From positions 1 through 42,592 of the forward strand of contig JABFRX010000017.1 of NCBI GenBank assembly GCA_013140995.1: a stretch of 42,592 bases of DNA, read 5' to 3'. Origin of the DNA: Alphaproteobacteria bacterium. Lineage in GTDB: Bacteria > Pseudomonadota > Alphaproteobacteria > Micropepsales > Micropepsaceae. Position 1 is the stretch's first letter, and each line of letters opens with the position of its first letter. The position numbers and the translations under genes are program-made. The notes under the pieces were generated by a model that saw nothing but the letters and a program-made list of their open reading frames with translations, made no database searches and had not been told where the DNA came from. Positions 12,556 through 35,189 of the stretch are shown in pieces.

Positions 12556-12752
12556 CTGGATTGAGCCCTCACACTCCGCCTTCACGTTGGGAGTACTTGG
12601 TTGAATAGCTCAGTGTTTACGAGTTTTCCAGCGTCCGTCCCGGGCCGGCTCGAGCTCAATCGATCGGTGCGATGGTCCTATGGCCATTGAAGGTCTCGAT
12701 AAATAAGTGATTGGAGAGCGAGGGGATTACTTCACCTCAACGGGCGGGGATC

Positions 12753-15915: not shown

Positions 15916-15925
15916 CCCCTTGGAC

Positions 15926-16775: not shown

Positions 16776-18374
16776 TCACTTCTGGACCGTGACTCCGTGC
16801 TCACCGCAGTGCCAGCAGCTATAGTTGAGCGGCCACTCCTGCCGAATTTCAGCCCAGGCGGTCGATCGTTGCGGCCATTCGTAGTCACTGAGTGACGGAT
16901 ACGCACCAAGTGACTTCAGCACCGGAGCCGAAGGCACGATCGCTCTATGCGTCGCGGTTGTCGATTCGCCGGCGAGTACCTCAAGCGCGAGGCGGGCTAT
17001 CAGACCTTGCGTCGCAACGACGTCGGCGTACCCAAACGGAAGGAAATGCTCGTGGCAGCCGTCCGCAAGCCTTAGTGGCGACTCGTCTTCCCAACGGGCG
17101 ACTTCTCGTACGAACCGCCCGTTCGGCGAAAACAGACAGGCAAAGCACTTACCCATGAGCGAGACCGCGTGACCCGCGGCAGCGTGACCCTCGACCCAAC
17201 CGGCGACAAACCGAACGCTGTTGTTGCGCGCCCACTCTGCTAGCGCCAGCTCGTCAGGCCACGAAGCAATGGTGCTAACAATGGCATCGGCCCGGAGTTC
17301 TTCTGGTTTGTCGGCGGCAACGCGCTGCCATGTCTCGGCCAATCCTATGATGCGAGGCGCTGTTGGGATGTGTTCTTGCAATCGTCGCGCCAGCTCGACG
17401 GCTTTCGGGCGCTCCACGGCGCTTCCCCCTAATGCATGGCGCGCGACGTTGTCCCAGGAGACCACGTCTGGATCGATAATCGTGAGCCAACCGACGCCGG
17501 CGCGTGCCAGAAGCTCGGCTACGCCGCCTCCAAGCGAGCCACAGCCTACTAGCGCGACATGTGCGTTGGCGATTTCTGCACGCAAACCATTTCCACCGCG
17601 ACTGTGAAGCCATTGGCGATCCGCACGGTCAACGCGCAAGCGCGCAATGACATGAGGAGATTCCAAGACAATGGCCACAAGGAGCGGTCCCGCTGCAGTC
17701 GCAAGCACAAAGATCAAAATGCCCCCATGCAGCACCACCTTCTTTTGCTCGTCATTCAGCGAGGAAAAATCATGGGGAACCTCTGAGAAGTCCTTTGCGT
17801 CAGTAATAAGCGCATCTACGAACGCCAAGGCCGATATGCCCCTGTGCTCCAGCCATGCGCTGAGTTCAGCGGGAGTCCCGGCAATCACCCACCGGTCGTA
17901 CAGCTTGGTCGCCGTAGCATTCGATCTTCTGTCAGCGACATCTAGAAGCGACCACGCGCGCAAACCACCGCTAACCCAACGGTGGCGTGCAGCAACCGGA
18001 TCTTGCCCAGCAATGCGAGCATTGCGCTCGACAATCTGCAGCAATGCCCGAAGGACTTGATCGATCGCCTTCTCGTGAACAAGGGGCATGCTTCTTCGCC
18101 CCGGTTCAAGAAAGCAAACCCTTCCGTCCGTCTCCACATTGTGCCAGGCGGCGCGCGCGCCCGCAGGCTCCACCATCCTCAAGATCGGCGTCCCATAGGG
18201 CGCGTCGGGACCAAGAAGATAGTGTACCCTAATGGCCGAGCCGACGAGCTCCCAACCCAGGGCCTCACCTTGACCGAGCTCTTGACCTGTCAGCTCCCGG
18301 TGCGCAAAGCCCCATCTCTCAAAACAACGTGTGTGCAGACGTTGCAATGATGGTCGCAGCGCCGGAAATAGCAT
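16776..18374 (-). CDS. E2-E1 ubiquitin-like conjugation fusion (ThiF family)
   Basis: The 532-residue protein joins an E2-like domain to an E1-like adenylating domain, as in CBASS Cap2 and other bacterial ubiquitin-like systems. Residues 48-115 hold the E2 core, with WHNVETDGRVC placing the candidate catalytic Cys at 87, nine residues after His78. Residues 272-460 are the ThiF fold: VGCGSLGGG (277-284) for ATP, IIDPDVV, Asn309 and Arg312 in WDNVARHAL and Lys324. Cysteines 410/413 and 520/523 form CxxC pairs likely to bind zinc. ATG 18374 is used because it falls one base after the upstream stop; GTG or other starts to 18482 would overlap that gene. No JAB peptidase or CD-NTase is present. It stands on the opposite strand to its glycan-gene neighbours, as inserted cargo would. 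Confidence 0.85.
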   Translation of the reverse strand: MLFPALRPSLQRLHTRCFERWGFAHRELTGQELGQGEALGWELVGSAIRVHYLLGPDAPYGTPILRMVEPAGARAAWHNVETDGRVCFLEPGRRSMPLVHEKAIDQVLRALLQIVERNARIAGQDPVAARHRWVSGGLRAWSLLDVADRRSNATATKLYDRWVIAGTPAELSAWLEHRGISALAFVDALITDAKDFSEVPHDFSSLNDEQKKVVLHGGILIFVLATAAGPLLVAIVLESPHVIARLRVDRADRQWLHSRGGNGLRAEIANAHVALVGCGSLGGGVAELLARAGVGWLTIIDPDVVSWDNVARHALGGSAVERPKAVELARRLQEHIPTAPRIIGLAETWQRVAADKPEELRADAIVSTIASWPDELALAEWARNNSVRFVAGWVEGHAAAGHAVSLMGKCFACLFSPNGRFVREVARWEDESPLRLADGCHEHFLPFGYADVVATQGLIARLALEVLAGESTTATHRAIVPSAPVLKSLGAYPSLSDYEWPQRSTAWAEIRQEWPLNYSCWHCGEHGVTVQK

Positions 18375-18375
18375 C

Positions 18376-18606
18376 TTAGCCGGCGCGAAACCCACCCCAC
18401 GGCAGGTCGTCCCAGTCGCCCACGGGGAAATGTACCCCCGGAGAATGCGGTCGGGCCAGACGAAGGACAGCAAGGCTTGCATCGAGCGCTATTCGCGCAT
18501 CTTCATGTGTGACCAGCTTACCAAGTCGATCAACAGCACTCTTTACGTGCACCTCAGCAAGAGCTTTCAGCCCGATCTGCGACGTCGGCATTTCGACCAT
18601 AGTCAT
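18376..18606 (-). CDS. 76-residue partner protein of the E2-E1 fusion
   Basis: This is a small protein of unknown family. ATG 18606 has GGAGG about 6 bases upstream, a strong ribosome binding site, and its stop is one base before the E2-E1 start, so the two are translationally coupled. The sequence looks helical (LKALAEVHVKSAVDRLGKLV) and then has an aromatic Gly-rich tail, DWDDLPWGGFRAG, ending in Gly. A C-terminal Gly is what ubiquitin-like modifiers or Cap2 targets present for adenylation. No beta-grasp pattern is evident, however, so it may be a target or adaptor instead. The coupling is seen; the role is inferred. Confidence 0.72.
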   Translation of the reverse strand: MTMVEMPTSQIGLKALAEVHVKSAVDRLGKLVTHEDARIALDASLAVLRLARPHSPGVHFPVGDWDDLPWGGFRAG

Positions 18607-18726
18607 GAGTTCCTCCGTCAATGAGTGGCGCAACTCTACGCGAGTGCTTCATCCTACTCAATGCCATAAATATTTGATACTCAGTCGTGACTGAAACTCA
18701 CAATAGCGACCTAAGGAATCCGCGTG
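18607..18726. promoter_or_regulatory. Divergent control region with 14-bp palindrome
   Basis: The partner/E2-E1 unit and the epimerase operon diverge from here. Bases 18681-18694 read tcagtcgtgactga, with 6-bp perfect arms around a 2-base centre, a size and symmetry usual for dimeric repressor sites. An AT-rich run (ataaatatttgata) lies next to it. No regulator gene is adjacent, so the binder is unknown. Confidence 0.4.
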
Positions 18727-19707
18727 ATGACCGGTTTGGATTGGCCAAGGTCAACCGTCCTCGTGGCAGGTGGCGCTGGGTTTGTGGGTTCGACACTCGT
18801 CCGACGACTCGTCGACAAGGGTGCCCGAGTCGTTTCTTTCGACGATTATTCAACGGGCTCTCCGTCCCATTTGCCAAAGAGTAGGCAAGTCGAAGCCATC
18901 AGGGCGGACGCGCGCGACCGGCTCAAAGTTCTTGAAACGATGCGCGCGCACAGGATCGACTATGTATTTGATTGCATTGGCGATACTTTTGTACCCGAAG
19001 CATACGAGTTGCCCCAACGCTTCTTCGAAGTGAACCTAGGAACTACTCTCAACATACTAAGGGCGGCGCATGAGGCAGGCATAAGGCGTGTTCTCTATGT
19101 GTCCTCGACGGAGGTATACGGCGAAACGACCACCGAGCGTACAGATGAAAACTGTCGACTGCATCCCGTGAACACATATGCCGTATCTAAGCTGGCGGCG
19201 GACCGACTTTGTTACACCTATCACTTGGAGCACGGGCTCCCGGTACTCATTGCGCGGATTTTCAACTGCTATGGTCCGCGCGCAACGCATCCGTATGTCA
19301 TTCCGGAGATCATACGGCAGCTGAGTTACGGTGGGCAGTTAGAGCTTGGCAACACCAGTGCAGAACGCGACTTCACATACGTTGACGACACGGCACGGGC
19401 GTTGATCGCCCTAATGGAATCCGATGTAGCTGATGGCGACGTGGTCAATGTTGGGTCAGGTGAGGCGCATTCCGTCGCTTCGCTGGTTACTCGACTTGCG
19501 AGAATAATGGAGGTTTCGAATGTCGAGGTCGAGCGGGACCCCACGCGCCTCCGTCGACATGATATCTCGCGCTTCTGCGCGGACAGTGGCAAACTTCGGC
19601 GCGCGACCGGTTGGGAGCCTCTTGTTCCCATTGATGTCGGGTTGCGGCGGACTGTCGACTGGTTTCGCCAAAATGGCTGCTGCTGGCACTGGATGAGATC
19701 TGAATGA
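18727..19707 (+). CDS. NAD-dependent sugar-nucleotide epimerase/dehydratase
   Basis: This extended SDR enzyme of about 326 residues would act on a nucleotide sugar. It has GGAGFVGS for NAD, VSSTEVYGE, TYAVSK with Tyr151 and Lys155, RIFNCYGPRATHPYVIPEI and RDFTYVDD, all typical of the 4,6-dehydratase and 4-epimerase branches. The product overlaps the next gene by ATGA, and that gene is a sugar aminotransferase. A dehydratase feeding a 4-keto or 3-keto sugar to the aminotransferase is therefore likely (inference). ATG 18727 has AAGGAA about 9 bases upstream; GTG 18724 is equally possible. The exact reaction cannot be told from motifs alone. Confidence 0.9.
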   Translation: MTGLDWPRSTVLVAGGAGFVGSTLVRRLVDKGARVVSFDDYSTGSPSHLPKSRQVEAIRADARDRLKVLETMRAHRIDYVFDCIGDTFVPEAYELPQRFFEVNLGTTLNILRAAHEAGIRRVLYVSSTEVYGETTTERTDENCRLHPVNTYAVSKLAADRLCYTYHLEHGLPVLIARIFNCYGPRATHPYVIPEIIRQLSYGGQLELGNTSAERDFTYVDDTARALIALMESDVADGDVVNVGSGEAHSVASLVTRLARIMEVSNVEVERDPTRLRRHDISRFCADSGKLRRATGWEPLVPIDVGLRRTVDWFRQNGCCWHWMRSE

Positions 19708-20807
19708 TCAAGCATCTGCCCGTCGCGCGGCCATACTTTTTTGGCAAGGAGCATGAATACATCGATCAAGCGCTCCACTCGATGCAGATCTCCGGCGCGG
19801 GCGCGTTTGTGGACCGGATGGAGGACCTCATCGCCAAGGCAGCCGCGACGCCACATGCGATTGTGGTGTCCAGTGGTACTGCGGCGCTTGACTTAGCGTT
19901 CGAGGCACTTGGGGTAAAACCAGGTGACGAAGTGATCGTGCCTGATTTCACTATGTTTGCGCCGGTTGCTGCTTTGTTGCGTCGAGGGGCGGTTGTCGTT
20001 CCCGTTGACATCGACGCAACGTGGAATCTTGACCCAGGGCGTGTCGCAGAAGCGCTGACGGCAAGGACCAAGGGAATTCTGATGGTGCACACGTACGGAC
20101 ATCCAGCCGATGCGACGCGGATTTGCGAACTCGCGCGCCAGCGGGGAATCTGGGTTGTCGAGGACGCGGCCGAGGCGCTGGGCGCGAAGCTCGGTGGGCG
20201 CGCCGTGGGTTCGTTCGGCAACGTTGCGACGTTCAGCTTCTATGCGAACAAAGTCGTCACTTCGGGCGAGGGAGGTGCGGTCGTCACACGGGACAGCAGG
20301 CTTGCGGCACGCCTGCGCGCATTGCGCAACCTCTGTTTTGGCGATGGATGGGCGCAGCGCTTTGTACACGACGGCATTGGCTTCAATTTCCGGCTCTCGA
20401 ATGTGCTCGCGGCGATAGGGTGCGCTCAGCTTGAGCATCTCGACACGGCGCTTGCAAGCAAACGTCGTACGGCGGTTTACTACCGCGAGCGCCTTTCTCG
20501 TATAAGAGGCCTCATTCTACCGCCGGATTCGTCACGCGTTCTTCATTCATATTGGGTTTTTGGCGTGCTGTTGCCACACGGACATGATCGCAGCGAGGTG
20601 GCAGCTCGGCTGGCCGAGGCGGGGATCGACACGCGCCCCTTCTTTCACCCGGTGCACAGCCAACCTTGTGTCCCAGCCATGCAGGGAGCCTTTCCAAATT
20701 CTGACATGCTAGCGGAACGCGGTATCTATCTTCCTTCGTTTGTCGGTATCTCGAAGCAAGATATCGACCGCGTCAGCGACGCGCTTAAAAAGGCGCTTGC
20801 AGCGTAA
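19704..20807 (+). CDS. DegT/DnrJ/EryC1 sugar aminotransferase
   Basis: This is a 367-residue PLP enzyme that would transfer an amino group to a keto-sugar nucleotide. SSGTAALDLAFEALGVKPGDEVIVPDFTMFA is the family N-terminal signature. VEDAAEALG supplies Asp154 for the PLP ring nitrogen, and SFYANKVVTSGEGG supplies the PLP-binding Lys183. The ending RPFFHPVHSQP followed by YLPSFVGIS is usual for the GDP-perosamine/PseC/FdtB-like groups. Its ATG overlaps the epimerase stop by 4 bases. Its 3' end overlaps the convergent glycosyltransferase gene by 23 bases. With manC nearby, GDP-perosamine-like amino sugars are possible, but substrate choice needs phylogeny. Confidence 0.92.
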   Translation: MIKHLPVARPYFFGKEHEYIDQALHSMQISGAGAFVDRMEDLIAKAAATPHAIVVSSGTAALDLAFEALGVKPGDEVIVPDFTMFAPVAALLRRGAVVVPVDIDATWNLDPGRVAEALTARTKGILMVHTYGHPADATRICELARQRGIWVVEDAAEALGAKLGGRAVGSFGNVATFSFYANKVVTSGEGGAVVTRDSRLAARLRALRNLCFGDGWAQRFVHDGIGFNFRLSNVLAAIGCAQLEHLDTALASKRRTAVYYRERLSRIRGLILPPDSSRVLHSYWVFGVLLPHGHDRSEVAARLAEAGIDTRPFFHPVHSQPCVPAMQGAFPNSDMLAERGIYLPSFVGISKQDIDRVSDALKKALAA

Positions 20808-22518
20808 TCTGTGCGCCCTTCGGCCAGCCGGCCAACATGTGTTCCACATAGAGCCGCACCCTTTGCTCATGCACGCTCGGGTTATGGTAGAGCGCAATGT
20901 TTGGATCATCTGCACTTTCAGTGAAGCGAAAAATCTCCGGTGCCTGGATCTTGCGGCAACTCACGCCGACTTCGGCACTCAGGACATATGAAAGCCAATA
21001 GTCATCCACGAGCACATATTCGGGGTGCGTCATCGGACGAAGAGACGCGCGCCGAAGAAGGTCCATTGAGATTACGAAATTGTCGGCGTGAGCGAAGTCC
21101 ACGGTACACTCTGGAGCGTTTTGATCGTGGAACTTCATGTGCTGTTCACGTTGCCACACCAGTTCTGGGTTATCGAGATCCAAACGATGGGGGTGAAATA
21201 CGTGGCCGCGCACGCACACTGCAACCTCACGGCCGAGTCTTTCGTGCGCGTCATACAATGTTCGTATGTAGTGCGGTTCGGGTAGGACGTCATCGTCACA
21301 GATCAGCAGCACGTCACTTCGTGCAATCGCAGGTAACGCTAGACGCATAGCGCAATAGAAGTTCTCACTGGAATGGATAACTCGGATCGGAAAATCTGAA
21401 CTCAAATCTCGAACGGCCGCATCGACGAGAGGTGCATTTCTTGAGTCGTTATTCCAGATCACCAATTCGAACCTGGGCGCATCTCTCTGGCAAGAAAATC
21501 GATTAAGCTGTTCTCTTAGGCTATGAAGCCTCGCATAGGCAGTGATAAGCACCGTCACGTCGAAACGCTCAAACACTCCCTGTCGCGAAGGGGGGGTGGG
21601 TAACGAAATATAGACTGCGCTAGATTGCACGCGGTCGATGAAATCCTTGTCGCAAGGAGCGCTTTCGCGGCGATCGAGGAGGTATTGATGCGCATCGCGC
21701 ACGCGCGCCGTGTCGCGCAGCAGCGCAGCGGCGTTTCCCTCATGGTAAAGTGGATAGTCCGGGCCAAGATATTCAGGCACGCCGCCTACGCGGTTCACGC
21801 AGATTGGTGTCGCTCTCGCAACGCACTCTACGACTGTGGTGCTTGCAGTTGCATCGCTCAGCTGAAGGAAGACAGCGCTTTCGGCGAGCAACTCGTCGTA
21901 CACATTGTCGGCAACTGGGCGGAGGACTTCGACCGAATCGTTTGCTCGCACCGCGCGCGAACGAACTGCCCAGTCGGTCGGCTCAAGCATTTGCTTTTGC
22001 CAGCCCGGCACGTCGAGGTCGAAGAATGCCTGAAAGTCGCGCAAGAATTCGCCGACGTGTAGGAGCTTGGGGCGAGCGCGCCCAGAAAAGCGGTTCCAAT
22101 CGAATCTCGGGACGTCTTTCGACGATACATACGGAAGCACACCAATTGGTATTTGGACGCCACAACTTCGCAGGAAATTTCTAACGTAGTCCGTCAACGT
22201 CCATATGCCTAGACAGTAGGGCTCACTGTCCCGCCAAGCCGCCATTTGCAACAGGCGCTCGACATCGGGGAACCCAGGTAGATCATGGCGAGGCGCTTGG
22301 TGCACGACGCCCACCCATAGCTCTTGAATTGCACCATCGTAGTGAAGCCGATCCTCAACGGCACTGACAAACAGCACACCCTCAGGACATGTAAGATGAC
22401 GCTGCACAAGCGCTTCGATCCGACGCCACCCTTCCCGATGATGTGCCCACGCGAAACTGTCGTCCATTCGCAGCTTCGGGAGCCAACCACGAGTTTTTGG
22501 GATTCTTGCAGCAGGCAT
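20785..22518 (-). CDS. Two-domain glycosyltransferase (GT-B plus GT-A), DDD intact
   Basis: This 577-residue paralogue of the protein at 10780-12555 has the same order. A GT-B-like half has VLPYVSSKDVPRFDW, LLHVGEFLRDFQAFFDL and PICVNRVGGVPEYLG. A GT-A half has FELVIWNNDSRN, an intact metal-binding DDD in VLLICDDDVLPEP, and MTHPEYVLVDDYWLSYVL. ATG 22518 is chosen because it aligns with the paralogue start, and longer frames would run into the divergent gene at 22664. A protein with both folds could add two different sugars in turn, as bifunctional enzymes in O-antigen loci do (inference). It converges on and overlaps the aminotransferase gene. Confidence 0.85.
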   Translation of the reverse strand: MPAARIPKTRGWLPKLRMDDSFAWAHHREGWRRIEALVQRHLTCPEGVLFVSAVEDRLHYDGAIQELWVGVVHQAPRHDLPGFPDVERLLQMAAWRDSEPYCLGIWTLTDYVRNFLRSCGVQIPIGVLPYVSSKDVPRFDWNRFSGRARPKLLHVGEFLRDFQAFFDLDVPGWQKQMLEPTDWAVRSRAVRANDSVEVLRPVADNVYDELLAESAVFLQLSDATASTTVVECVARATPICVNRVGGVPEYLGPDYPLYHEGNAAALLRDTARVRDAHQYLLDRRESAPCDKDFIDRVQSSAVYISLPTPPSRQGVFERFDVTVLITAYARLHSLREQLNRFSCQRDAPRFELVIWNNDSRNAPLVDAAVRDLSSDFPIRVIHSSENFYCAMRLALPAIARSDVLLICDDDVLPEPHYIRTLYDAHERLGREVAVCVRGHVFHPHRLDLDNPELVWQREQHMKFHDQNAPECTVDFAHADNFVISMDLLRRASLRPMTHPEYVLVDDYWLSYVLSAEVGVSCRKIQAPEIFRFTESADDPNIALYHNPSVHEQRVRLYVEHMLAGWPKGAQITLQAPF

Positions 22519-22663
22519 TCTGTATTGCCAATCTGGAATGTCCAATGATACGTGCTTTCTTGAAAGCGGGCAATGAGGTGGATGGCATGATCTGAGAGAC
22601 CCTATGGGCGCACGGGTGAAGTGCAAAGGGCGTGTCAACCTCAGTGAGGAATAATCTTCCAGG

Positions 22664-23923
22664 ATGAGCGAGACCTTTAACAGCAACAATAGCTCAGCGA
22701 GATCAGAACTACCTCTACAAAAGAGAGCGTTATTCTATGTTTTTGACCGTGGTACGGGCATAGGGCATTTACGTCGGCTTTCAACTATCGCAGAACAAAT
22801 GCAGGGGCGCTTTGCCTGTCTCGTTGTGACCGGTCACCGGGCGGCTGCACATTGGTTCGTTCCCCAAGCTTGTGAGTATGTGCGGATTCCCAGTTGGGAC
22901 GGCCTACTAGGAGCCAACGCCCGCTACTGGGGGCGTGCGCCGTTTGTGAATATGAGTAAGGCGCAGGCGGTCGAGTTTCGGACAGAAATTCTCCGCGGAA
23001 TCGTCCGGGGTTTCAAACCCGACGCGATCTTCGTCGACCACCTTCCGCTGGGCGCCGAAGAGGAGCTCGCAGCAATTCTTCGAGATGCGCCTTGTCGCAA
23101 GTATTTTGTTACTCGAGGCGTTCTCAACGAAACCGAAAATCTTCGCCAACTGATCCTTGGCGGAAAGGCGGGTGACTATCTCAGGGTGCACTATGACCGC
23201 GTGTTCGTCGCGTCGGATCCCCGCGTCTTCGATTTTTGCCGACAATACAACATCCCCGCTGAAATTCGCGAGAAGGCGATTCACGTGGGATACGTCACAC
23301 AGAAAATCCCATACGAACAGAAGCTCAAGACTCGCACAGCCCGAGGAATCGGGGTCAGCGACATCTGGGTGGTTGCGTCGGCGGGTGGGGGCCAGCATGG
23401 TGAGGAGTTGATCGAGAATTGTATTGGCCTTGGCAATGAGTATCCCGACATTGCATTTGACATCGTCATTGGTCCACGATCAAAGCTGGCTTCGGCCGAC
23501 CCAATCTGGTCAGCATCCACGCAGGGTCGGCTACGAATTCACAAGGAGGTGCCGCACTTGGCTCAGTTGAACGCCAGTGCAGACATCGTAATTTCGGCCG
23601 GCGGTTACAACACGCTGCTTGAGGCCGTTCAAGGTAGTGCGGACATCCTTTGTTTTCCGTCGCGCAAGAACACGCGCGATGAGCAATATCAGCACGCTGC
23701 GCGGTTGAAGAAGTTTGTGAACATTGAGGTTTCGACGGAGGTGCGTGAACTCGTGCCGTTATTTGACAAAGCACTAACGTCGTTGTTGCAGCATCGGCGT
23801 GGCGATAGGCGTGGGGAGCTATTGCTCGACGGCGCCGCCAACATTCGGAAAGTGGTCGAGCAAGATCTCGGGTCGACCTCTTTTGGTGACAGTCCCGCAA
23901 AGGAGGACTCGGAATCTGCATGA
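22664..23923 (+). CDS. MurG-like (GT28-type) glycosyltransferase
   Basis: This is a 419-residue GT-B protein with no signal peptide. GTGIGHLRRLSTIAEQM (about 30-46) is the N-terminal Gly/His loop seen in MurG and related enzymes. VVASAGGGQHGEELIENC and IVISAGGYNTLLEAVQGSADILCFPS form the C-terminal nucleotide-sugar site. It is first in a tightly coupled operon: its stop overlaps the dehydrogenase start as ATGA, and the next three genes follow with overlaps or a 15-base gap. The coupling suggests that it uses or accompanies the acyl group made by those genes. The donor and acceptor are unknown. Confidence 0.85.
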   Translation: MSETFNSNNSSARSELPLQKRALFYVFDRGTGIGHLRRLSTIAEQMQGRFACLVVTGHRAAAHWFVPQACEYVRIPSWDGLLGANARYWGRAPFVNMSKAQAVEFRTEILRGIVRGFKPDAIFVDHLPLGAEEELAAILRDAPCRKYFVTRGVLNETENLRQLILGGKAGDYLRVHYDRVFVASDPRVFDFCRQYNIPAEIREKAIHVGYVTQKIPYEQKLKTRTARGIGVSDIWVVASAGGGQHGEELIENCIGLGNEYPDIAFDIVIGPRSKLASADPIWSASTQGRLRIHKEVPHLAQLNASADIVISAGGYNTLLEAVQGSADILCFPSRKNTRDEQYQHAARLKKFVNIEVSTEVRELVPLFDKALTSLLQHRRGDRRGELLLDGAANIRKVVEQDLGSTSFGDSPAKEDSESA

Positions 23924-24786
23924 GGTTTGCGACTATCGGAGTCGTTGGTGCAGGCGTGATGGGTGCGGGGGTCGCCCAGTGCCTGGCGCAGACTGAGCAC
24001 AGTGTTGTTCTAGTGGATGTTTCTCAGGAAATTCTGGAGCGTGCTCGAACGCAAATTGCCAGAAACTTGAGATTCGGAGCGCTGTTTAATCCTGCACTGC
24101 GCAGCGCCAACCACTCGGAAGTGCTCGATCGAATCGATCTCACTGTGAACTACGAACGTCTAGCCAACCTTGACTTCATTATCGAGAACGTCACAGAGAG
24201 TTGGGAGATCAAGCGGGCTGTCCACGCCGAACTCGATCGGATTTGCCGGAAGGAGTGCATCCTTGCCGCTAACACGTCGGTGATCTTGATCGCCAGTTTG
24301 GCCGCCGCGACGCAGTGCCCGGACCGCGTTGTGGGAATGCATTTCATGAACCCGGTTCCACAAATGCGCGCAGTCGAGGTCATTAAGGCTAAAGATACGA
24401 GTGGTGCGACGGTGGAGAGTGCCACGGAAGTTCTGCAGCAAATGGGCAAGTCTGCAATCGTCGTGGGAGACAAGCCTGGCTTTGTCTCAAATCGCGTACT
24501 CATGTTGGCGATAAACGAGGCCATAATGGTTGTGCAGGACGAAGTTGCTGAGCCCGCAGTCGTTGATGAGATTTTTGTGAAATGCATGGCCCACAAAATG
24601 GGGCCGTTGGCTACTGCGGACCTCATAGGCTTAGATACGGTGCTGCGGTCGCTTGAACTACTTTGTCAGTACTACGGCGAGCACAAATATCGGCCGTGTT
24701 CGCTTCTGAAAGATATGGTTGCCGCAGGCCTTTACGGGCGCAAGTCGGGACGAGGGTTCTTCAGATACGCAGGGCAAGCGCGGTGA
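23920..24786 (+). CDS. 3-hydroxyacyl-CoA dehydrogenase, FkbK-like
   Basis: This 288-residue NAD(P)-dependent dehydrogenase has GVVGAGVMGAGVAQ (8-21) as the Rossmann loop, FIIENVTESWEIK, GMHFMNPVPQM with the catalytic His, GFVSNRVLML and a final LYGRKSGRGFFRY. These are hallmarks of 3-hydroxybutyryl-CoA dehydrogenases. Its place beside an ACP, an acyl-CoA dehydrogenase and an FkbH-type protein matches FkbK, which oxidises the glyceryl-ACP hydroxyl in (hydroxy/methoxy)malonyl-ACP biosynthesis. The start codon overlaps the preceding stop and its own stop overlaps the GTG of the ACP gene, so expression is coupled on both sides. Confidence 0.9.
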   Translation: MRFATIGVVGAGVMGAGVAQCLAQTEHSVVLVDVSQEILERARTQIARNLRFGALFNPALRSANHSEVLDRIDLTVNYERLANLDFIIENVTESWEIKRAVHAELDRICRKECILAANTSVILIASLAAATQCPDRVVGMHFMNPVPQMRAVEVIKAKDTSGATVESATEVLQQMGKSAIVVGDKPGFVSNRVLMLAINEAIMVVQDEVAEPAVVDEIFVKCMAHKMGPLATADLIGLDTVLRSLELLCQYYGEHKYRPCSLLKDMVAAGLYGRKSGRGFFRYAGQAR

Positions 24787-25055
24787 CACTGGACGTGCGG
24801 GCTCGAATCCAACGATACATACGCATTGCCGTCGGTAGCGACATCAACGATGAGGACGATATCTTCGAGTTGGGCTTAGTGGACTCGCTTTTCGCACTCG
24901 AGCTAGTGACGTTTGTCGAAAGTGAGTTTGGGGTTGTTGCCGAGAAGGAAGACCTTGACATTTGCAACTTCTGCTCAATCGCAGCTCTAGTAGCTTTCGT
25001 CGAGGCCAGGTGTCAGAATGATGAAGACGCAGGCCGAACATGGACATCAGACTGA
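24783..25055 (+). CDS. Acyl carrier protein, FkbJ-like
   Basis: This is a 90-residue acidic carrier protein. LGLVDSLFALELVTFVESEFGV carries Ser35, the expected 4'-phosphopantetheine site; the usual DSL motif is present. GTG 24783 overlaps the FkbK-like stop as GTGA. The gene end overlaps the acyl-CoA dehydrogenase start by 16 bases. In Fkb-type cassettes the dedicated ACP holds the glyceryl, then hydroxymalonyl, group. The tail after residue 75 is unstructured and acidic. Confidence 0.88.
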   Translation: MTLDVRARIQRYIRIAVGSDINDEDDIFELGLVDSLFALELVTFVESEFGVVAEKEDLDICNFCSIAALVAFVEARCQNDEDAGRTWTSD

Positions 25056-26182
25056 CTGACTCGCAACGTGCTTATCGCGAGACGGCACGGCAGTTCACGG
25101 CCCGGGAGCTTGCCCCTTGGGCAGCACGCATCGATCGCGAAGGGGTGACACCGCCTTCAGTTCTGAACGTGATTCGCGGCTGCGGGTTCCTGGGCGCAGC
25201 ACTTCCGCAGGATAAGGGAGGGGGTGGCATTGATGAGGTGAGTTACGGAATCTTGACGGAAGAAGTCGGGAGAGTCTGCTCGTCCACTCGAAGCCTGATG
25301 ACGGTGCACAACATGTCCGCCCAAGCGATCGCGCGCTTCGGCGACCACGAGCAACAAGAGCGGTGGCTGCCGGACCTTTGTTCGGGTCGAAAGGTCGTCG
25401 CATTCGCACTAAGTGAGCCGGAGGTTGGCAGTGCGGCTGACGCGATCGAGACCAAAGCGACTTCGGATGGTAACGCGTTTCGGGTGAGTGGAACAAAAAA
25501 GTGGATCACCTATGGTCTGATCGCGGATTTGTTTGTCGTTTTCGCGAAGCTTGAGGGAGCACCGATCGCACTTGTGGTGGATCGCGATAGCGAAGGGCTT
25601 CGGATCGAGCCTGTGACGGACATCTTCGGAGTGCGCGGGTCAATGCTTGCGCAGTTACATTTCGACGAAGTGCGAGTCCGTAAGGAACGGCAGCTCGGTC
25701 GCGTGGGAATGGGAATTCGCTTTGTCGCGAACGTCGCGTTGGATCACGGAAGGTTCTCAGTTGCATGGGGCAGCACCGGCATCATCCAAGCGTGCCTCGA
25801 CGCCTGCGTTGCCTATAGCGAGCAGCGGCGCCAGGCAGGCCGCAGGCTTAAGGATTTCCAGCTTATCCGGCGTCAATTGGCGAACATGTTGGTTGATCAC
25901 ACGGCTTCTCGCGCACTGTGTTATCGCAGCGCCTGCCTTCGCCAGCGGCGCGCTCCTCAAGCCACGATGGAAACGTCACTGGCGAAATACCATGCTTCCA
26001 TGGCAGCCATTCGGGCCGCCACAAATGCGGTGCACATGCACGGCGCAAACGGTTGCAGCGGTGAATACCCCGTCGATCGTTACTTGCGCGATGCTACAGT
26101 TTCCGGGATTGTCGAAGGAACTCACGAAATTCACCAGCTTGCATTGGCGAGTTATGCACTTCGGCGTCCTTACCTGGACTGA
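25040..26182 (+). CDS. Acyl-CoA dehydrogenase family, FkbI-like
   Basis: This is a 380-residue FAD-dependent dehydrogenase. FALSEPEVGSAADAIET and KKWITYG bind FAD and substrate. The C-terminal IVEGTHEIHQLALASYALR contains the usual catalytic-Glu segment. In the Fkb cassette this enzyme carries out the second oxidation that turns the ACP-bound aldehyde into a carboxyl, giving hydroxymalonyl-ACP. Here it follows the ACP gene with a 16-base overlap, the same neighbourhood as FkbI. A role in ordinary fatty-acid oxidation is less likely because of the context. Confidence 0.92.
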   Translation: MDIRLTDSQRAYRETARQFTARELAPWAARIDREGVTPPSVLNVIRGCGFLGAALPQDKGGGGIDEVSYGILTEEVGRVCSSTRSLMTVHNMSAQAIARFGDHEQQERWLPDLCSGRKVVAFALSEPEVGSAADAIETKATSDGNAFRVSGTKKWITYGLIADLFVVFAKLEGAPIALVVDRDSEGLRIEPVTDIFGVRGSMLAQLHFDEVRVRKERQLGRVGMGIRFVANVALDHGRFSVAWGSTGIIQACLDACVAYSEQRRQAGRRLKDFQLIRRQLANMLVDHTASRALCYRSACLRQRRAPQATMETSLAKYHASMAAIRAATNAVHMHGANGCSGEYPVDRYLRDATVSGIVEGTHEIHQLALASYALRRPYLD

Positions 26183-26197
26183 AGGGTTATTCAAGCC

Positions 26198-27292
26198 GTG
26201 ACTGAGGCCTCCGCTGCATTCAAAACTGACTCAAAAGAGTGCAAGCAGATTAAGTGCGTCGTCTGGGACCTTGATGACACTCTGTGGCAAGGCACCCTGC
26301 TCGAGGGAGATGATCTGGTCGTGACGGACCTTGTGCGGCACACTATCGTCGAGCTGGACTGTCGCGGCGTCCTACAGTCGATTGCGAGCAAGAACGACCC
26401 CGCTGTGGCATGGGACAAACTTACAGCGCTCGGTCTCGACGAATACTTTCTCTACCCCCAGATCAATTGGGGTAACAAATCAGACTCGCTCCGAACAATC
26501 GCCGAGAAGCTGTCCATTGGGCTCGAATCGCTGGCCCTAGTTGACGACCAACCGTTCGAGCGCGACGAGGTTTGCTTCCATCTCTCAGGGGTGACCGTCA
26601 TTGACGCTGCTCAACTCGGCGGTTTGTTGGATATGCCCGCCCTGCACCCGCGTACGCTAACGAGTGAATCTAAACAGCGACGTCGTATGTACCAAGCAGA
26701 CATCCGACGCAAGGATGACGAAGTGAAGTTCGACGGGGCACGGTCTCAATTTCTGGCCACCTTGCGCATGGTGGTAACTCTGCGGCGTGCCACGGAAGAG
26801 GATCTTTGGCGGGCGGAGGAGCTTACGACGCGGACCAATCAGCTCAACTCCACTGGCCGAACTTATTCGCGTGAGGAATTGCATGATCTGTTGCAATCTG
26901 AAGAACACACCTTGCTGATCGCGGAACTGGAAGACCGGTATGGCTCGAGTGGCACCGTCGGTCTCGGGTTGATCGAACGAGGTTCCGCCAGCTGGCTCTT
27001 GAAGCTGCTGATAGTGTCGTGCCGGGTCGTAAGCCGTGGCGTTGGCAGCATCATGCTCACCCATATTCTGAAGTCTGCGGCCCGTTGCGGAGTCCGATTG
27101 CAAGCTGAATTCGTGGACACGCAGCGAAACCGAATGATGTATATCACGTACAAGTTCGGCGGATTTTATGAGGTCGGCCAGCGAGATGCGGTCACGTTGC
27201 TGGAGCACGCGCTAGGCGAGATTCGACCATTCCCTCCCCATGTCACCGTTGATTCGACGGATCAGTTGGGTGCACCGCATACCGCTGAGTAG
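26198..27292 (+). CDS. FkbH-like HAD-GNAT glyceryl transferase
   Basis: The 364-residue protein has an N-terminal HAD-IIIC domain with VVWDLDDTLW (Asp24, Asp26) and FLYPQINWGNKSDSLRTIAEKL, followed by ALVDDQPFERDEV. These are the recognisable FkbH signatures. Residues about 190-340 form a GNAT-like domain (WRAEELTTRTNQLNSTG, then a C-terminal acyl-binding region). FkbH takes 1,3-bisphosphoglycerate, removes phosphate and loads the glyceryl group on an ACP (established for FK520 and zwittermicin pathways). The TGG GTL variation after DDTLW is slight: the usual GG is QG here. It closes the operon, 15 bases after the acyl-CoA dehydrogenase. No FkbG O-methyltransferase follows. Confidence 0.93.
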   Translation: MTEASAAFKTDSKECKQIKCVVWDLDDTLWQGTLLEGDDLVVTDLVRHTIVELDCRGVLQSIASKNDPAVAWDKLTALGLDEYFLYPQINWGNKSDSLRTIAEKLSIGLESLALVDDQPFERDEVCFHLSGVTVIDAAQLGGLLDMPALHPRTLTSESKQRRRMYQADIRRKDDEVKFDGARSQFLATLRMVVTLRRATEEDLWRAEELTTRTNQLNSTGRTYSREELHDLLQSEEHTLLIAELEDRYGSSGTVGLGLIERGSASWLLKLLIVSCRVVSRGVGSIMLTHILKSAARCGVRLQAEFVDTQRNRMMYITYKFGGFYEVGQRDAVTLLEHALGEIRPFPPHVTVDSTDQLGAPHTAE

Positions 27293-27467: not shown

Positions 27468-28295
27468 ATGATGGCTTTGCAATATGTTGTGAAGACCTTC
27501 CGCCGAGACCTTCAATCTTATTTGCAGCTGCAAGATGACTTACAGCGCTTTGACTGCGCCAACATTCGGCTGTGTGTGCCTGTTGACGATCTCGCCGCCT
27601 TCTCACGTATTGTTGCGGCTGACGTGGAATTGGTCAGTTCTGAGCAAGTGCTTGCCTCCTTCGGCTTCCATCGGGTGCTTCCCGAGAGCTGGTACTCGCA
27701 ACAACTGCTCAAATTACTACTCGTAGCCTCGAGCACTGTCGAAACATGTTGGGTTCTCGACGCAAACACGATTCTCCTGCGACCTCCACCGCGCGCACAC
27801 GACGATGGCGGCCGCATAGTCCTCTCGTGTGACCGCCCAACCGAAGAAGACCGGCAGTGGTACGCTTCCAGTGCGCGGTTCCTTGGTATGCCAATCTCCG
27901 GACCGCGCATGGCAGCGGTGAACCAGCCACTTAGTCGAAAAGCTGTGCGCGCGCTATTGCGCTTTGTTGCGGTGCGAACCCGCTGCCATCCAGTTTACGC
28001 ATTAGCCGGCAGCATGCTGATCGGGCAATTCCGCCGCGAGCCAGTTTGGACTGAATTTGGTCTCTATCGCAGTTTTGCGACGCACGTCCTGCCCGCCTTG
28101 CACCGGTTCTCTAAGGTTCGCCGCACCGTCTACTACCGGCATGAAATCGAGGGCCGGGCATTTGACCAATGGCTTTATCAGGTCAACGAACGACGCCCTG
28201 CCATGGTCAAGGTCTATGCGCGCCGGCCGACAGGTGCGATCCCGCCAACCAGACTCAGCGCCATTTGTGATCGCATCAGGCGGGCGAGTCGTTAG
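27468..28295 (+). CDS. DUF6492-like glycosyltransferase
   Basis: This 275-residue protein resembles GT-A-like proteins of the DUF6492 group. WYSQQLLKLLLVAS is followed by CWVLDANTILLRPP, in which DAN stands where a DxD metal motif is expected. A later WTEFGLYRSFA segment is also typical. ATG 27468 and ATG 27471 are both possible, with GGGGTGG just upstream. The gene lies 175 bp after the FkbH-like gene on the same strand; that gap holds no gene. It is probably another sugar transferase of the locus. The DxD change to DAN may lower metal binding. Confidence 0.72.
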   Translation: MMALQYVVKTFRRDLQSYLQLQDDLQRFDCANIRLCVPVDDLAAFSRIVAADVELVSSEQVLASFGFHRVLPESWYSQQLLKLLLVASSTVETCWVLDANTILLRPPPRAHDDGGRIVLSCDRPTEEDRQWYASSARFLGMPISGPRMAAVNQPLSRKAVRALLRFVAVRTRCHPVYALAGSMLIGQFRREPVWTEFGLYRSFATHVLPALHRFSKVRRTVYYRHEIEGRAFDQWLYQVNERRPAMVKVYARRPTGAIPPTRLSAICDRIRRASR

Positions 28296-28477: not shown

Positions 28478-29098
28478 TCATTCTATACATGTCACATTAA
28501 CGCCGTAACCCAGCAACCCAAGCAGTCGGCTCTCCATGGCAGACCATTCGCTCCGAATAACACTGAACAGCACCGAGTCTCGAACCCGCCCATCCTTATA
28601 AATCAAATGGTTTCGGATTATCCCTTCCTGCTTGACGCCTAATATCTTCATCGCGGCTCGCGAGCTCAAGTTATGAGGGTCGGTGATCAGTTCCACTCGA
28701 TTCGCTTCAAATCGGTTGAAGGCACACGTAAGCAACAGCAGCCTGACCTCCGGGTTGATCAAAGTGCCTCTCGCATCCGGTGCATACCAAGTGGATCCGA
28801 TCGCGAGCCGCCGGTGATCCGGCACCAGGTCGTAGAACCTTGTTGTGCCGATGATCCGATGGTCGCTACGTCGGTGAACGGCGAAAGGAAGGTGCTCGTC
28901 GTTCGCAGACCGCTCCATCGTATAGTCGAACCACGGGTCGAAATCCTCACCCGCGCCGTTGAAGTTGATTGGGAAGTAGGTCCAAATGCTCGGGTCCTCG
29001 GCCGCTGCGGCGCGCAGCGGCTCTCGATGCTGTGGGCCGAGCGGTTCCAACACAACGGTCGGGCCGGACAAGCGGCTGGGGCGAGCAAACTTCTTCAA
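28478..29098 (-). CDS. GNAT-family N-acetyltransferase (RimJ/RimL-like)
   Basis: This 206-residue acyl-CoA transferase is of the GNAT fold. Residues about 12-170 contain TVVLEPLGPQHREPL, IIGTTRFYDLVPDHRRLAIGSTWY and FNRFEANRVELITDPHNLSSRAAMKILGVKQEG, the usual RimJ/L acetyl-CoA-binding and Asn-containing segments. TTG 29098 is used, with GGAG about 6 bases upstream. It is downstream of the isonitrile-synthase-family gene on the same strand with 57 bases between. It may acetylate an amine on the product of that pathway or an amino sugar (inference). The 28296-28477 gap has no gene. Confidence 0.85.
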   Translation of the reverse strand: MKKFARPSRLSGPTVVLEPLGPQHREPLRAAAAEDPSIWTYFPINFNGAGEDFDPWFDYTMERSANDEHLPFAVHRRSDHRIIGTTRFYDLVPDHRRLAIGSTWYAPDARGTLINPEVRLLLLTCAFNRFEANRVELITDPHNLSSRAAMKILGVKQEGIIRNHLIYKDGRVRDSVLFSVIRSEWSAMESRLLGLLGYGVNVTCIE

Positions 29099-30718: not shown

Positions 30719-31050
30719 AGTTCGCTCCCTGCGCACACAGAGATCATCAAGCTAGCGACTGTGAGATTCCCCTCGCAAGATGACAGAGCTGGGCATACCC
30801 AGAGGACCGCCGTCGACCGAACCCAAGAAGCCGCCAACGTTCACCTAACCCTTCCTTCGTTGCATTGTGTGGGTGCTAGTGAGAATTCGCCCAGAAGCGC
30901 TGAGGGAGTTGAGTTTACCTACGCATCGATGACGAAGGCTGCGCCCGCGTACCACCGCGCGGTAAAGCGAAGCCTTTCGGACCCTATACGTTCCTCCTAC
31001 CGCGCGCTATGTTTGTTGACAACAGCAGATGCTACGGAGCCAGAGATTCT
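30719..31050. other. Divergent intergenic region, no gene
   Basis: This stretch of about 330 bp lies between the divergent PvcA-like and GSCFA genes. Short open frames cross it, but none has family likeness or a ribosome binding site. It should contain both promoters; no strong sigma-70 match or long palindrome was seen. Confidence 0.5.
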
Positions 31051-31995
31051 ATGTCCTGGAGGATAGTTCAGCCCCACGTAGGGAACAAGTGGCAAAGAGA
31101 TAGCAACCCTCTCCTTCATCCAATGAATCAGCGCAAGTTCTTGGCTAGAGACAGTCGAATTTTTTCGATTGGTAGCTGCTTCGCTTTGAACGTGAATAGA
31201 TGGCTGCAGTTTCAAGGTTTCTCAGTCCCATCCGTCACGTGGGGCATGCACTACAACACCCGAACGATCCTCTACGAACTACAGCGCGCCGCGGGAGTTC
31301 AGTTGCCGAGTTTCGACTGGGTTGTGAGAAAATCCGACGGATCCAAGGCGTATGTCGACGCATTAAGGCACTGCATCGATGCAAGCACGCCGGAAGAACT
31401 CGCAGGCCTTAAGGCGGCGGTTAGCTCAGAAACGCGCAGGTGCTTTGAGGCGGCCGACAGTTTTCTAATAACTCTGGGGCTGTCTGATATCTGGGAAGTA
31501 GACGTAGGGGGTCAAATGATCGCCCTGAACCGAGCTCCGTATCAGGACGCGCTGTCCAGCGTAGGCCCGTCGCAGCAAGAAGCGTTCAATCGATTCTTGA
31601 CTGTGCAAGAGTGTACGGAGGACATAGTGAGAATTGTCGATACGATAAGGAAAAATAAACAACCAAATATACCGATCGTTCTGACGGTCTCGCCGGTGCC
31701 CTTGAAGCATGCGAGTAGATATTGTCACCCGCACATTGCAAACAGCCGGTCGAAGGCCACTCTATTGTCTGCGGTATTCTCGTTCATCGAACGGGACGCC
31801 TGCGACCAACCGGTGTCTTACTTCCCATCATTCGAATTTTTCGATACAAATCCCTTGAAAATCGACTTGTGGCAGCGTGATGGCCGGCACCCGACAGCGC
31901 AGGCTATCTCCTGCGTTGCAGAACACTTTGTTAAAGCCTACTCGCTCGCACACGTGGAGATAAAGCCAGGCTTCTCTGTGCCGATCTTCGATTGA
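31051..31995 (+). CDS. GSCFA-domain protein
   Basis: This 314-residue protein is of the GSCFA family, an SGNH-like hydrolase or acyltransferase fold. IFSIGSCFALNVNRWL gives the name motif with its Ser-Cys pair. LITLGLSDIWEV, VSPVPLKHA, SYFPSFEFF and DGRHPT with the C-terminal Asp-His pair follow in the usual order. The family is often found in polysaccharide loci and is suspected to move or remove acyl groups on glycans, but its activity is not established. ATG 31051 fits the family N-terminus; ATG 31009 is an alternative. The FMN-enzyme gene follows 11 bases later, so the two are co-transcribed. Confidence 0.85.
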   Translation: MSWRIVQPHVGNKWQRDSNPLLHPMNQRKFLARDSRIFSIGSCFALNVNRWLQFQGFSVPSVTWGMHYNTRTILYELQRAAGVQLPSFDWVVRKSDGSKAYVDALRHCIDASTPEELAGLKAAVSSETRRCFEAADSFLITLGLSDIWEVDVGGQMIALNRAPYQDALSSVGPSQQEAFNRFLTVQECTEDIVRIVDTIRKNKQPNIPIVLTVSPVPLKHASRYCHPHIANSRSKATLLSAVFSFIERDACDQPVSYFPSFEFFDTNPLKIDLWQRDGRHPTAQAISCVAEHFVKAYSLAHVEIKPGFSVPIFD

Positions 31996-32006
31996 GGAGA
32001 GCGCCG

Positions 32007-33143
32007 ATGTCGGGCGAGCGCGCGCCGCCAAATGGCCGTTTGGCGGTTCAACCGGTGACCCTGGAGGACTATCGCGCGTTGGCACGCGAATCCGTCCCCC
32101 TCGACATATTCGACTATGTTGATGGCGGAGCCGGTGATGAGGTCACAGTTCGGGCCAACCGTCGCGACTTTGACGAACTCTTGCTGCTGCCGCTGTGTCT
32201 GCGCGACGTGTCGTCGCCAGCGCTTGCCGTAACGCTGTTTGGCCAAGAGATGCAGTTCCCAGTTGGGTACAGCCCAACGGCCCTTCATCAGTTAGTGCAC
32301 GTCGACGGTGAGTTCGCAACAGCACGTGCGGCAGCGGCTCTACGCATTCCCATGATCGTCAGCGTGATGTCCAGCATCCCTCTTGAGGAGGTTGTGACTA
32401 GGTCCGACAACAACACGCTCTGGCTGCAGCTCTACTTCTTCAAGGATCGCGAATTAACAAAACACCTCGTTCGGCGGGCTGAACAGGTTGGATGCAAAGC
32501 AATCGTGATCAGTCTGGGGTGCCCAGTGCCGGGCAGAAGGGACCGAAACTTGCGCAACGAGTTCCGTTTGCCCCAGACCGTCTCTGCTGCAAATTTTCGG
32601 CGTACCGAGCGTACGGACTTCAACAGCCCCATCCATTCGCTCGAAGGGGCGGAATTAGATTCGTCTGCCACCTGGCAGGACCTGCTTTGGCTATGTGATT
32701 TCACAGTTCTGCCAGTCGTCGTCAAAGGACTCATGAATCCACGCGACGTAGAGCCGACGCTGAAATGTGGAGCCTCGGCGATCATGGTCTCGAACCATGG
32801 CGGCAGACAACTGGACACGACGGCCTCGACGATTCGCGTGTTGCCCGAGTTTTCTGCAGCGATTGCGGGGCGAATACCTCTGTTCGTCGACAGCGGTTTT
32901 CGGCGTGGTACTGACGTGCTGAAGGCCATCATCCTTGGCGCGGATTGCGTGTTTCTAGGTCGGCCGGTGATGTGGGCGCTCGCAGCTGCCGGCGAACAGG
33001 GTGTGTCCGCAATGACGACTCTGCTCCATAACGAGTTGCACGTAGCGATGCAGCTGACTGGTTGCGCTTCAATCGCTGAGCTTCGCGCACAAGGGCAGAG
33101 CCTCCTTCGTCAGTCGCGGCCCTCTTCGGTTCATGACGACTAA
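32007..33143 (+). CDS. FMN-dependent 2-hydroxyacid dehydrogenase, altered active site
   Basis: This 378-residue TIM-barrel enzyme is of the lactate/glycolate/mandelate oxidase family, which oxidises 2-hydroxyacids to 2-oxoacids with FMN. Seen motifs are FDYVDGGAGDE, QLYFFKDRE (substrate Tyr), VVVKGLMNPRDV (FMN Lys), VSNHGGRQLD (catalytic His and Arg) and VDSGFRRGTDVLKAIILGAD. The usual TVDTP is changed to SLGCP, so the Asp that tunes glycolate-oxidase catalysis is a Gly. ATG 32007 has GAGGAGA directly upstream. It is coupled to GSCFA, and its end overlaps the convergent glycosyltransferase by 4 bases. A C3 hydroxyacid such as glycerate or tartronate is a tempting substrate given the Fkb-type genes (inference). 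Confidence 0.9.
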   Translation: MSGERAPPNGRLAVQPVTLEDYRALARESVPLDIFDYVDGGAGDEVTVRANRRDFDELLLLPLCLRDVSSPALAVTLFGQEMQFPVGYSPTALHQLVHVDGEFATARAAAALRIPMIVSVMSSIPLEEVVTRSDNNTLWLQLYFFKDRELTKHLVRRAEQVGCKAIVISLGCPVPGRRDRNLRNEFRLPQTVSAANFRRTERTDFNSPIHSLEGAELDSSATWQDLLWLCDFTVLPVVVKGLMNPRDVEPTLKCGASAIMVSNHGGRQLDTTASTIRVLPEFSAAIAGRIPLFVDSGFRRGTDVLKAIILGADCVFLGRPVMWALAAAGEQGVSAMTTLLHNELHVAMQLTGCASIAELRAQGQSLLRQSRPSSVHDD

Positions 33144-34087: not shown

Positions 34088-34255
34088 GTTTATACATCGG
34101 TAAAAGTCGCCGCTTGAGGCGTTAGCTTTAGGCCGCGCCCCTCCACACTGCAAGGAGACGAATAACGCTGGTGCGCCGAGTATCGATAACTGCTGATTAC
34201 TGCTGGAAGTCGATTGGCCCTGTCGGGGGTGCGTGTCCGATAAACGAACATTGTC

Positions 34256-34540
34256 GTGGAGCGATCACGCGAAAGGTGTCGATTGCAATACGACGCTGTG
34301 GCTTTGGATGCTTGCATTGCCGAACATCTTCCGCCAGCGCACGCCGACAACACCCGGCGCACCTGCGCCTCCGACTTGAGGCACTCTGTTGGGTGGGGCG
34401 GCAAGCTTCCGAGCTCTCCGGAGAAGACAACGCGCTGTGTTGCAGCGCTCGCGACGTCGCTCAATACCCGCACCGTCCGCTGGCGTCCCAACGAGAGTGC
34501 GATGACTTACGTGATCAGATCCGCTTGCAGCCGTAAATGA
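34256..34540 (+). pseudogene. Tyrosine recombinase N-terminal relic
   Basis: The frame from GTG 34256 gives ALDACIAEHLPPAHADNTRR, then CASDLRHSVGW, KLPSSPEK and VAALATSLNTRTVRW. This resembles the SAM-like core-binding domain of phage/Xer integrases, where ANTRRAYASDLRHFxAW and PASPETVAxYLAAL are usual. The catalytic domain is absent: the frame ends at 34540, where the UXS relic on the other strand begins. A weak form of the 20-bp repeat lies just upstream at about 34179. The match is by eye and moderate. The rest of 34088-34255 holds nothing recognised. Confidence 0.5.
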
Positions 34541-34544
34541 CACC

Positions 34545-34826: not shown

Positions 34827-34899
34827 TGCGCCCCTGCGTTGCAATTCCGCCGATTGGCCTTGGACTGATCGAGTGCCCTATCGGCTTATATTGAATTGC

Positions 34900-35180: not shown

Positions 35181-35189
35181 GATCGGCGC

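Follow-up and report, generated by a model that had tools for sequence, protein, structure and literature searches.

What does a complete gene set for a polyketide extender unit do where no polyketide synthase (PKS) is found? The question is raised by a stretch of DNA of 42,592 nucleotides, called the window below, from an alphaproteobacterium of the family Micropepsaceae (assembly GCA_013140995.1, contig JABFRX010000017.1, positions 1 to 42,592). Positions 22664-27292 form a tight operon of five genes, all with intact reading frames: a glycosyltransferase (GT) gene comes first, followed by a cassette for a 3-hydroxyacyl-CoA (acyl-ACP) dehydrogenase (3HAD), an acyl carrier protein (ACP), an acyl-CoA dehydrogenase (ACAD) and FkbH (Table 1). 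We tentatively propose that a three-carbon acyl group is built on the ACP of this operon and spent outside polyketide synthesis, most likely in acylating a sugar of a glycan or glycolipid encoded by the surrounding genomic island.

All five open reading frames were found where the original prediction had placed them, and Pfam and NCBIfam assign them to the same families. The junctions are close. As claimed, the GT and 3HAD genes have four bases in common (ATGA, 23920-23923), read directly from the coordinates; 3HAD and ACP share another four, given the GTG start of the ACP at 24783, and translation from this start does put the attachment serine at residue 35. ACP and ACAD overlap by 16 bases (25040-25055), and a gap of 15 bases separates ACAD from FkbH. 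In the NCBIfam scan, the FkbH protein reaches 259.8 bits against TIGR01686 (cut-off 146.65). With the four cassette domains above their cut-offs and the frames intact, gene-call error or chance was rejected as the source of the cassette.

The cassette appears complete for hydroxymalonyl-ACP, as had been predicted: the four protein types all pass their cut-offs and the checked catalytic positions are kept. In the 57-row FkbH alignment, the HAD residues Asp24 and Asp26 are present in each of the 56 rows not gapped at these positions, and Cys275, presumably the carrier of the glyceryl group, a role that is uncertain, in all 57. Residues Ser120, His141, Glu153 and Asn191 of 3HAD are identical in 43 of 43 rows, and Glu359 of ACAD is kept in 49 of 49; we take the catalytic roles of the HAD, 3HAD and ACAD residues to be those common in their families. 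Loss of the ACP serine in relatives had been named as an outcome that would speak against the idea, and all 49 ACPs compared have the serine. Identity of the window 3HAD to Streptomyces cassette proteins reaches 58%. ACAD matches the FkbI structure 1r2j with an E value of 6.6e-50 at rank 31, 30 other PDB sequences scoring better.

The Pfam scan, which covered part of the open reading frames, found no FkbG-type small-molecule O-methyltransferase in the window genes scanned, as expected from the earlier reading; the sole methyltransferase is a DNA methylase. Because FkbG is absent, the expected product is unmethylated hydroxymalonyl-ACP, and homology together with the intact residues makes its formation a well-supported prediction. 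A methoxymalonyl-ACP cassette was rejected on the same ground. A tetronate operon was rejected too, no FabH-like (3-ketoacyl-ACP synthase III, KAS III) domain being present in the window genes scanned.

Judging from the families, FkbH would dephosphorylate 1,3-bisphosphoglycerate and load the glyceryl group onto the phosphopantetheine of the ACP. The 3HAD would then oxidise the C3 alcohol to give 2-hydroxy-3-oxopropionyl-ACP, and the flavin-dependent ACAD homologue would yield hydroxymalonyl-ACP, left unmethylated. The same succession, from glyceryl-ACP through 2-hydroxy-3-oxopropionyl-ACP to hydroxymalonyl-ACP, has been proposed for tetromadurin (PMC7489565), and in zwittermicin biosynthesis ZmaE is the enzyme given for the final, FAD-dependent step (PMC4207774). 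What follows is speculative: an acyltransferase, for which the GNAT protein encoded downstream is a candidate, might transfer the acyl group to a sugar, at an amino or hydroxyl position; this could be the amino sugar from the LegB/LegC-like pair, and the same sugar or glycolipid might be handled by the GT28-like enzyme. The donor could also be the glyceryl precursor instead of hydroxymalonyl-ACP. Sugar acylation is the best-supported use because of the glycan context, the upstream amino-sugar pair, the glycosyltransferase as first gene and the GNAT gene 1.2 kb downstream.

A consuming PKS or non-ribosomal peptide synthetase (NRPS) was sought in the window and in the genome. Home-made profiles for ketosynthase (KS), acyltransferase (AT), condensation (C) and adenylation (A) domains matched none of the 264 window open reading frames of at least 60 amino acids, up to E = 10, which bears out the predicted local absence; the PKS-free flanks of the operon extend over about 22 kb upstream and about 15 kb downstream. 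The host assembly gave no condensation domain. Its two AT-model matches are partial and lie at contig ends (C10 and C302), in keeping with one FabD split across contigs, and its five KS-model matches are FabB (723.8 bits, cut-off 630; adjoining FabA), FabF (625.8 bits, cut-off 493.75) and three thiolases. The PKS or NRPS that marks an extender-unit pathway was thus found neither in the cluster nor elsewhere in the host assembly; as this is 94% complete and in 319 contigs, its absence from the host is likely, not absolute.

A second cassette of this kind was found. Among 385 genomes of the class, only one other (G173, with no other genome in its family) holds an FkbH at E 1e-60 or better, and it carries the complete cassette in the same gene order, at a locus called L095, with proteins 47-49% identical to those of the window. 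No KS, AT or C match occurs in the 20 kb read around that cassette. The genome-wide searches, made for condensation and AT domains, returned no condensation domain and two AT-model matches, namely FabD (300.8 bits, cut-off 260.9) and an alpha/beta hydrolase. The window and G173 stand together at 94/86 in the FkbH tree (57 rows), whose bootstrap had not settled, and at 92/87 in a joined four-gene tree of the 36 rows with all four proteins, from which the near-copies L058, L060, L063 and L064 had been removed.

The two ACPs share a further trait. Of 49 rows, 46 have Asn, Thr or Ser directly before the attachment serine; the other three, those of the window, L095 and L073 (a locus of Halothermothrix), have Asp. 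Asp is thereby found in three of the seven ACPs from places free of KS, AT and C domains (window, L095, L073, L061, L068, L030 and L035, some on short contigs) versus none of the 42 others, a post hoc count over related rows; L091 was placed among the 42, its own stretch having an adenylation-type match only and the adjoining L092, on the same contig, condensation domains. As a possible marker of PKS-free cassettes, this Asp is a lead, not a test. A wider and rather doubtful version of our proposal would be that the extender cassettes so marked (window, G173, perhaps L073) have left polyketide synthesis, and that hydroxymalonyl-ACP made from 1,3-bisphosphoglycerate serves, with sugar-acylating enzymes, as acyl donor for envelope glycans or glycolipids, giving an acidic tartronyl decoration derived from glycolysis.

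The operon is surrounded by glycan genes: the LegB/LegC-like pair, glycosyltransferases, a sulfotransferase, short-chain dehydrogenase/reductase (SDR) genes and mannose-1-phosphate guanylyltransferase (ManC). The LegB-like and LegC-like genes lie just upstream of the operon and overlap by four bases, and are a possible source of the amino-sugar acceptor. The island holds two further sugar-nucleotide SDR genes, one of them truncated. Two of its glycosyltransferases (10780-12585 and 20785-22689), 8 kb apart, appear as a duplication inside the island.

Composition sets this region apart. In tetranucleotide use, 5-kb pieces starting at positions 1 to 30001 differ from host contigs, with values of 0.221-0.299 versus 0.128-0.215 in 16 host pieces (one short stretch, L116 of 3.1 kb, was omitted from the sample); the piece at 32501 lies within the host range (0.181) and those at 35001 and 37501 are host-like (0.136 and 0.146). 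The GC fraction of the five operon genes is 0.52-0.59, compared to 0.625 in the host sample, and a cassette FkbH (E 1e-50 or better) occurs in one of the 96 genomes of the order. Because of this foreign composition and rarity, the cassette most likely belongs to an acquired island that adjoins host-like DNA. That the contig comes from another organism was rejected, foreign-like and host-like DNA standing on one contig, though a binning error of the whole contig keeps some probability.

Table 1. Operon, second cassette and neighbouring genes (positions in the window unless stated otherwise)
Feature	Position	Strand	Family match or remark
GT-B-type glycosyltransferase, 419 aa, operon gene 1	22664-23923	+	PF04101, GT28 C-terminal domain
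FkbK-type 3HAD, 288 aa	23920-24786	+	PF02737 3HCDH_N, PF00725 3HCDH
FkbJ-type ACP, 90 aa, GTG start 24783, attachment Ser35	24783-25055	+	PF00550 PP-binding
FkbI-type ACAD, 380 aa	25040-26182	+	PF02771/PF02770/PF00441, N, middle and C domains
FkbH, HAD phosphatase-GNAT glyceryl transferase, 364 aa, GTG start	26198-27292	+	TIGR01686
Complete cassette of G173 (locus L095, own coordinates)	3HAD 11704-12561, ACP 11437-11700, ACAD 10267-11433, FkbH ending 9203	-	same gene order
Second copy of GT2-type glycosyltransferase	10780-12585	-	53% identity to the 20785-22689 protein over 550 aligned positions; no Pfam match
Radical-SAM/SPASM protein	13972-15915		
Sulfotransferase	15782-16717		
LegB-like NAD-dependent sugar 4,6-dehydratase/epimerase	18724-19707	+	PF16363/PF01370; TIGR04180 LegB 202.5 bits, below cut-off 475
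LegC-like DegT sugar aminotransferase	19704-20807	+	PF01041; TIGR04181 LegC 292.2 bits, below cut-off 420
Glycosyltransferase with GT2 domain	20785-22689	-	PF00535
DUF6492 protein, downstream of operon	27468-28295	+	PF20102
GNAT acyltransferase, candidate acyl-transfer enzyme	28478-29098	-	PF13302
Protein with PvcA/DIT1 (isonitrile synthase family) domain, 526 aa	29156-30736	-	PF05141 47.8 bits, less than half of profile; PDB 3e59 E 2.7e-5
GSCFA-family protein	31009-31995	+	PF08885
FMN-dependent alpha-hydroxy-acid dehydrogenase	31992-33143	+	PF01070; 4-base overlap with GSCFA gene

Other contents of the window are given for completeness. Near the junction of island and host DNA (34515-36606), an SDR fragment is accompanied by a ManC split over two frames; these broken genes are either pseudogenes or assembly errors. 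On the minus strand, a 568-aa ThiF-family protein (16776-18482), with the anti-phage cap2_3 model as its best NCBIfam match, far below cut-off, is perhaps a defence-type E1 enzyme in the island. Two overlapping genes at 5872-9920, also on the minus strand, differ in content: one product combines TCAD9 and APH-like kinase domains with a weak response-regulator match, and the other is large and matches GAF weakly. Genes for a phage-type terminase large subunit and ParB/DNA methylase lie on the minus strand of the host-like DNA (36951-40244). A tRNA scan of the window found none. A further GT-like protein of the island, at 33140-34153, was recognised by eye alone, Pfam giving no match, and a sulfotransferase-like N-terminus of the radical-SAM protein, likewise seen by eye, was not confirmed by Pfam.

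The first gene of the operon had been called MurG-like, a label that turns out to be weak. The protein does match the GT28 C-terminal model (24.5 bits, cut-off 22), covering residues 296-350 alone (55 residues), and a profile built from four GT sequences reaches MurG (1f0k) remotely, at E 0.015, and UDP-glycosyltransferases, one of them YjiC, at E 0.0024-0.0077. No whole-length match to MurG or GT28 was obtained, and no NCBIfam model matched. TAL-effector matches of the same profile in the PDB were set aside as a low-complexity artefact, no single stretch passing by itself, and a single-sequence structure prediction (mean pLDDT 38.4, pTM 0.30) was discarded. Relatives at E 1e-30 or better, the host itself aside, are rare: one of 385 genomes of the class (41% identity) and one of 349 genomes of the phylum (28%). 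A 26%-identical relative sits in a glycosyltransferase operon of Mesorhizobium, and the nearest one (locus L096) has a stand-alone condensation-domain protein a few genes away. Viral contigs hold no relative of this glycosyltransferase or of FkbH.

Several findings weigh against sugar acylation. Company of a PKS or NRPS is the rule for FkbH relatives: in a scan of named genomes that gave 51 loci at 46-56% identity, local profiles hit KS, AT or C domains within the sequence retrieved for 43. The eight others (L030, L035, L043, L047, L061, L068, L069 and L073, with an adenylation-type match at L030 and L043) prove little, because several are short contigs or contig ends of 3-15 kb. The original prediction had named a PKS always accompanying related loci as refuting; such company is usual and not universal, for neither the host nor G173 has a condensation domain or an AT beyond FabD. 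Gaps in the host assembly could hide a PKS, and PKS genes assemble badly; for galbonolide, the methoxymalonyl locus is reportedly on record apart from its PKS.

The usual PKS or NRPS company, the gaps and the galbonolide case would suit an ordinary extender cassette that serves a PKS or NRPS elsewhere in the genome, lost from the draft assembly. We nevertheless consider this unlikely. The AT and KS matches of the assembly are accounted for by FabD, FabB, FabF and thiolases, and the surroundings of the operon are clear of PKS genes. The condensation search that drew a blank in the host gave 7, 3 and 8 matches in three FkbH carriers of the phylum (G510, G629 and G522, respectively), one of which, G629, is only 76% complete in 320 contigs; on its cassette contig, ACAD and FkbH alone were seen.

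The remaining objections to sugar acylation concern the setting of the cassette and its history. In G173, the cassette adjoins polyhydroxyalkanoate (PHA) metabolism genes rather than glycan genes, so the glycan context is not conserved: its neighbours are a regulator of polyhydroxybutyrate accumulation, a thiolase, an alpha/beta hydrolase, a class III aminotransferase and a convergently oriented gene whose GNAT match narrowly misses the cut-off. With the cassette FkbH found in one genome of the order only, its conservation across this lineage cannot be shown. Genes adjoining the operon lie partly on the opposite strand, and no MBOAT, AT3 or other known enzyme for acyl transfer from ACP to sugar was found among the window genes scanned. 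A quick 3HAD tree puts the window and G173 in a set with three Streptomyces whose branching order it does not settle. The grouping of window and G173 is not decisive in any case: both are long branches, and it may come from long-branch attraction.

The survey of FkbH relatives brought some further observations. Loci L061 and L068 (Clostridiales Family XIII) have an ACP with a short FkbH and no oxidising enzymes; at L061 a polysaccharide-deacetylase-domain protein is encoded just upstream and FkbH has an MBOAT-domain piece about 9 kb away. These pairs possibly provide glyceryl-ACP for envelope acylation. At L073 (9992-13469), FkbH, ACP and ACAD are followed by a KAS III-like gene, and no KS, AT or C match occurs in 21 kb. 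A plasmid search with FkbH returned 21 records, 15 of them from Streptomyces. The host itself encodes on contig C297 (L098) a second, long FkbH-like protein of about 650 aa, 30% identical across the FkbH part, with an SGNH domain of the AT3-fused kind nearby; an MBOAT suspected by eye at L098:5439-7004 had no Pfam match and is not claimed. Of the 96 genomes in the family, 14 besides the host gave an FkbH-like match, in almost every case within a frame of 570-710 aa.

Instead of decorating a surface polymer, the operon might take part in making a small PKS-free natural product, a hydroxymalonyl glycoside or glycolipid, with the PvcA/DIT1-like protein, the FMN dehydrogenase and the GSCFA protein in the pathway. 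The PvcA-family domain, possibly a natural-product gene of the island, makes this idea more serious. The overlap of the GSCFA and FMN dehydrogenase genes agrees with it, as does the condensation-domain protein near the closest GT relative, and the dehydrogenase is conceivably tied to tartronyl, an alpha-hydroxy acid. The downstream genes, however, are on both strands and in separate units, and the incomplete coverage of the PvcA profile also counts against it; altogether, we regard such a product as a serious rival, though an unlikely one.

There is only a slight chance that the operon is a recently acquired and unused relic. Its foreign composition and occurrence in one of 96 genomes of the order would be expected of a relic, and the same region holds the split ManC and the truncated SDR fragment; yet none of the five tightly coupled frames is broken, and no catalytic position checked has been lost. 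Least probable of all is that the product is no acyl donor and that the operon stops at, or releases, free glycerate, tartronate semialdehyde or tartronate: the want of a confidently identified acyltransferase, the alpha-hydroxy-acid dehydrogenase nearby and the PHA-metabolism genes around the G173 cassette would fit, but none of the five operon proteins shows a thioesterase domain in Pfam or NCBIfam, and making free C3 acids by way of a carrier would be a wasteful route.

If sugar acylation is the true use, an activated three-carbon unit is drawn from glycolysis for a purpose other than polyketide synthesis. It would follow that an acidic glycan decoration can be looked for by mass spectrometry, and that presence of the cassette alone is no proof of a polyketide cluster. 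Pathways to hydroxymalonyl-ACP and methoxymalonyl-ACP are described, in the literature found, as suppliers of PKS extender units. No description of hydroxymalonyl-ACP as a glycan acyl donor turned up in the open literature, to which the search was confined.

Carrier-bound acyl units of this size are familiar from several systems. The hydroxymalonyl-ACP genes of zwittermicin include zmaG, together with zmaN, zmaD and zmaE, while FkbG-K of FK520 form a methoxymalonyl-ACP cassette. In D-alanylation by DltA-D, a carrier-protein thioester is the acyl donor for an envelope glycopolymer; the window shares this idea of a carrier-thioester donor, and differs in having no adenylation-domain match and no MBOAT in the genes scanned.

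Closest in protein content are the zwittermicin genes and 'module M112949', the four-gene core of acyl-ACP extender pathways (PMC6395733): they comprise the same four protein types, without a methyltransferase, and unmethylated hydroxymalonyl-ACP is expected from them, as in the window. They serve, however, a PKS or NRPS with an ACP-reading AT, and none was found for the window cassette. Among methoxymalonyl-ACP cassettes, the bafilomycin cluster BafAI-AV has the order 3HAD-ACP-ACAD-FkbH plus an O-methyltransferase (PMC3679948, gene table); the gene order of the window is identical, while both the O-methyltransferase and a PKS are missing. Tetronate biosynthesis makes use of glyceryl-ACP by way of FkbH, an ACP and a FabH-like enzyme (PMC7489565). 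It has FkbH and a discrete ACP in common with the window, where no FabH-like gene was found beside the cassette and both oxidising enzymes are present.

A three-carbon acyl group in a glycan setting has its nearest counterpart in Campylobacter jejuni. There, the flagellar glycosylation region includes cj1302, a gene with an fkbH domain (PMC7099621), and a di-O-methylglyceric acid derivative of pseudaminic acid occurs in minor amounts on flagellin (PMC3958885); we infer that cj1302 is tied to it. The claim that the use was undescribed holds for hydroxymalonyl-ACP in the open papers searched; for a related, weaker idea C. jejuni is a precedent. The likeness consists in an FkbH-type gene within a glycan locus and a C3 acyl group on a nine-carbon sugar; no report of the two oxidising enzymes in C. 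jejuni was found. Set beside these systems, the parts of the window cassette are of a known kind, and what is new is a complete PKS-free cassette inside a glycan island.

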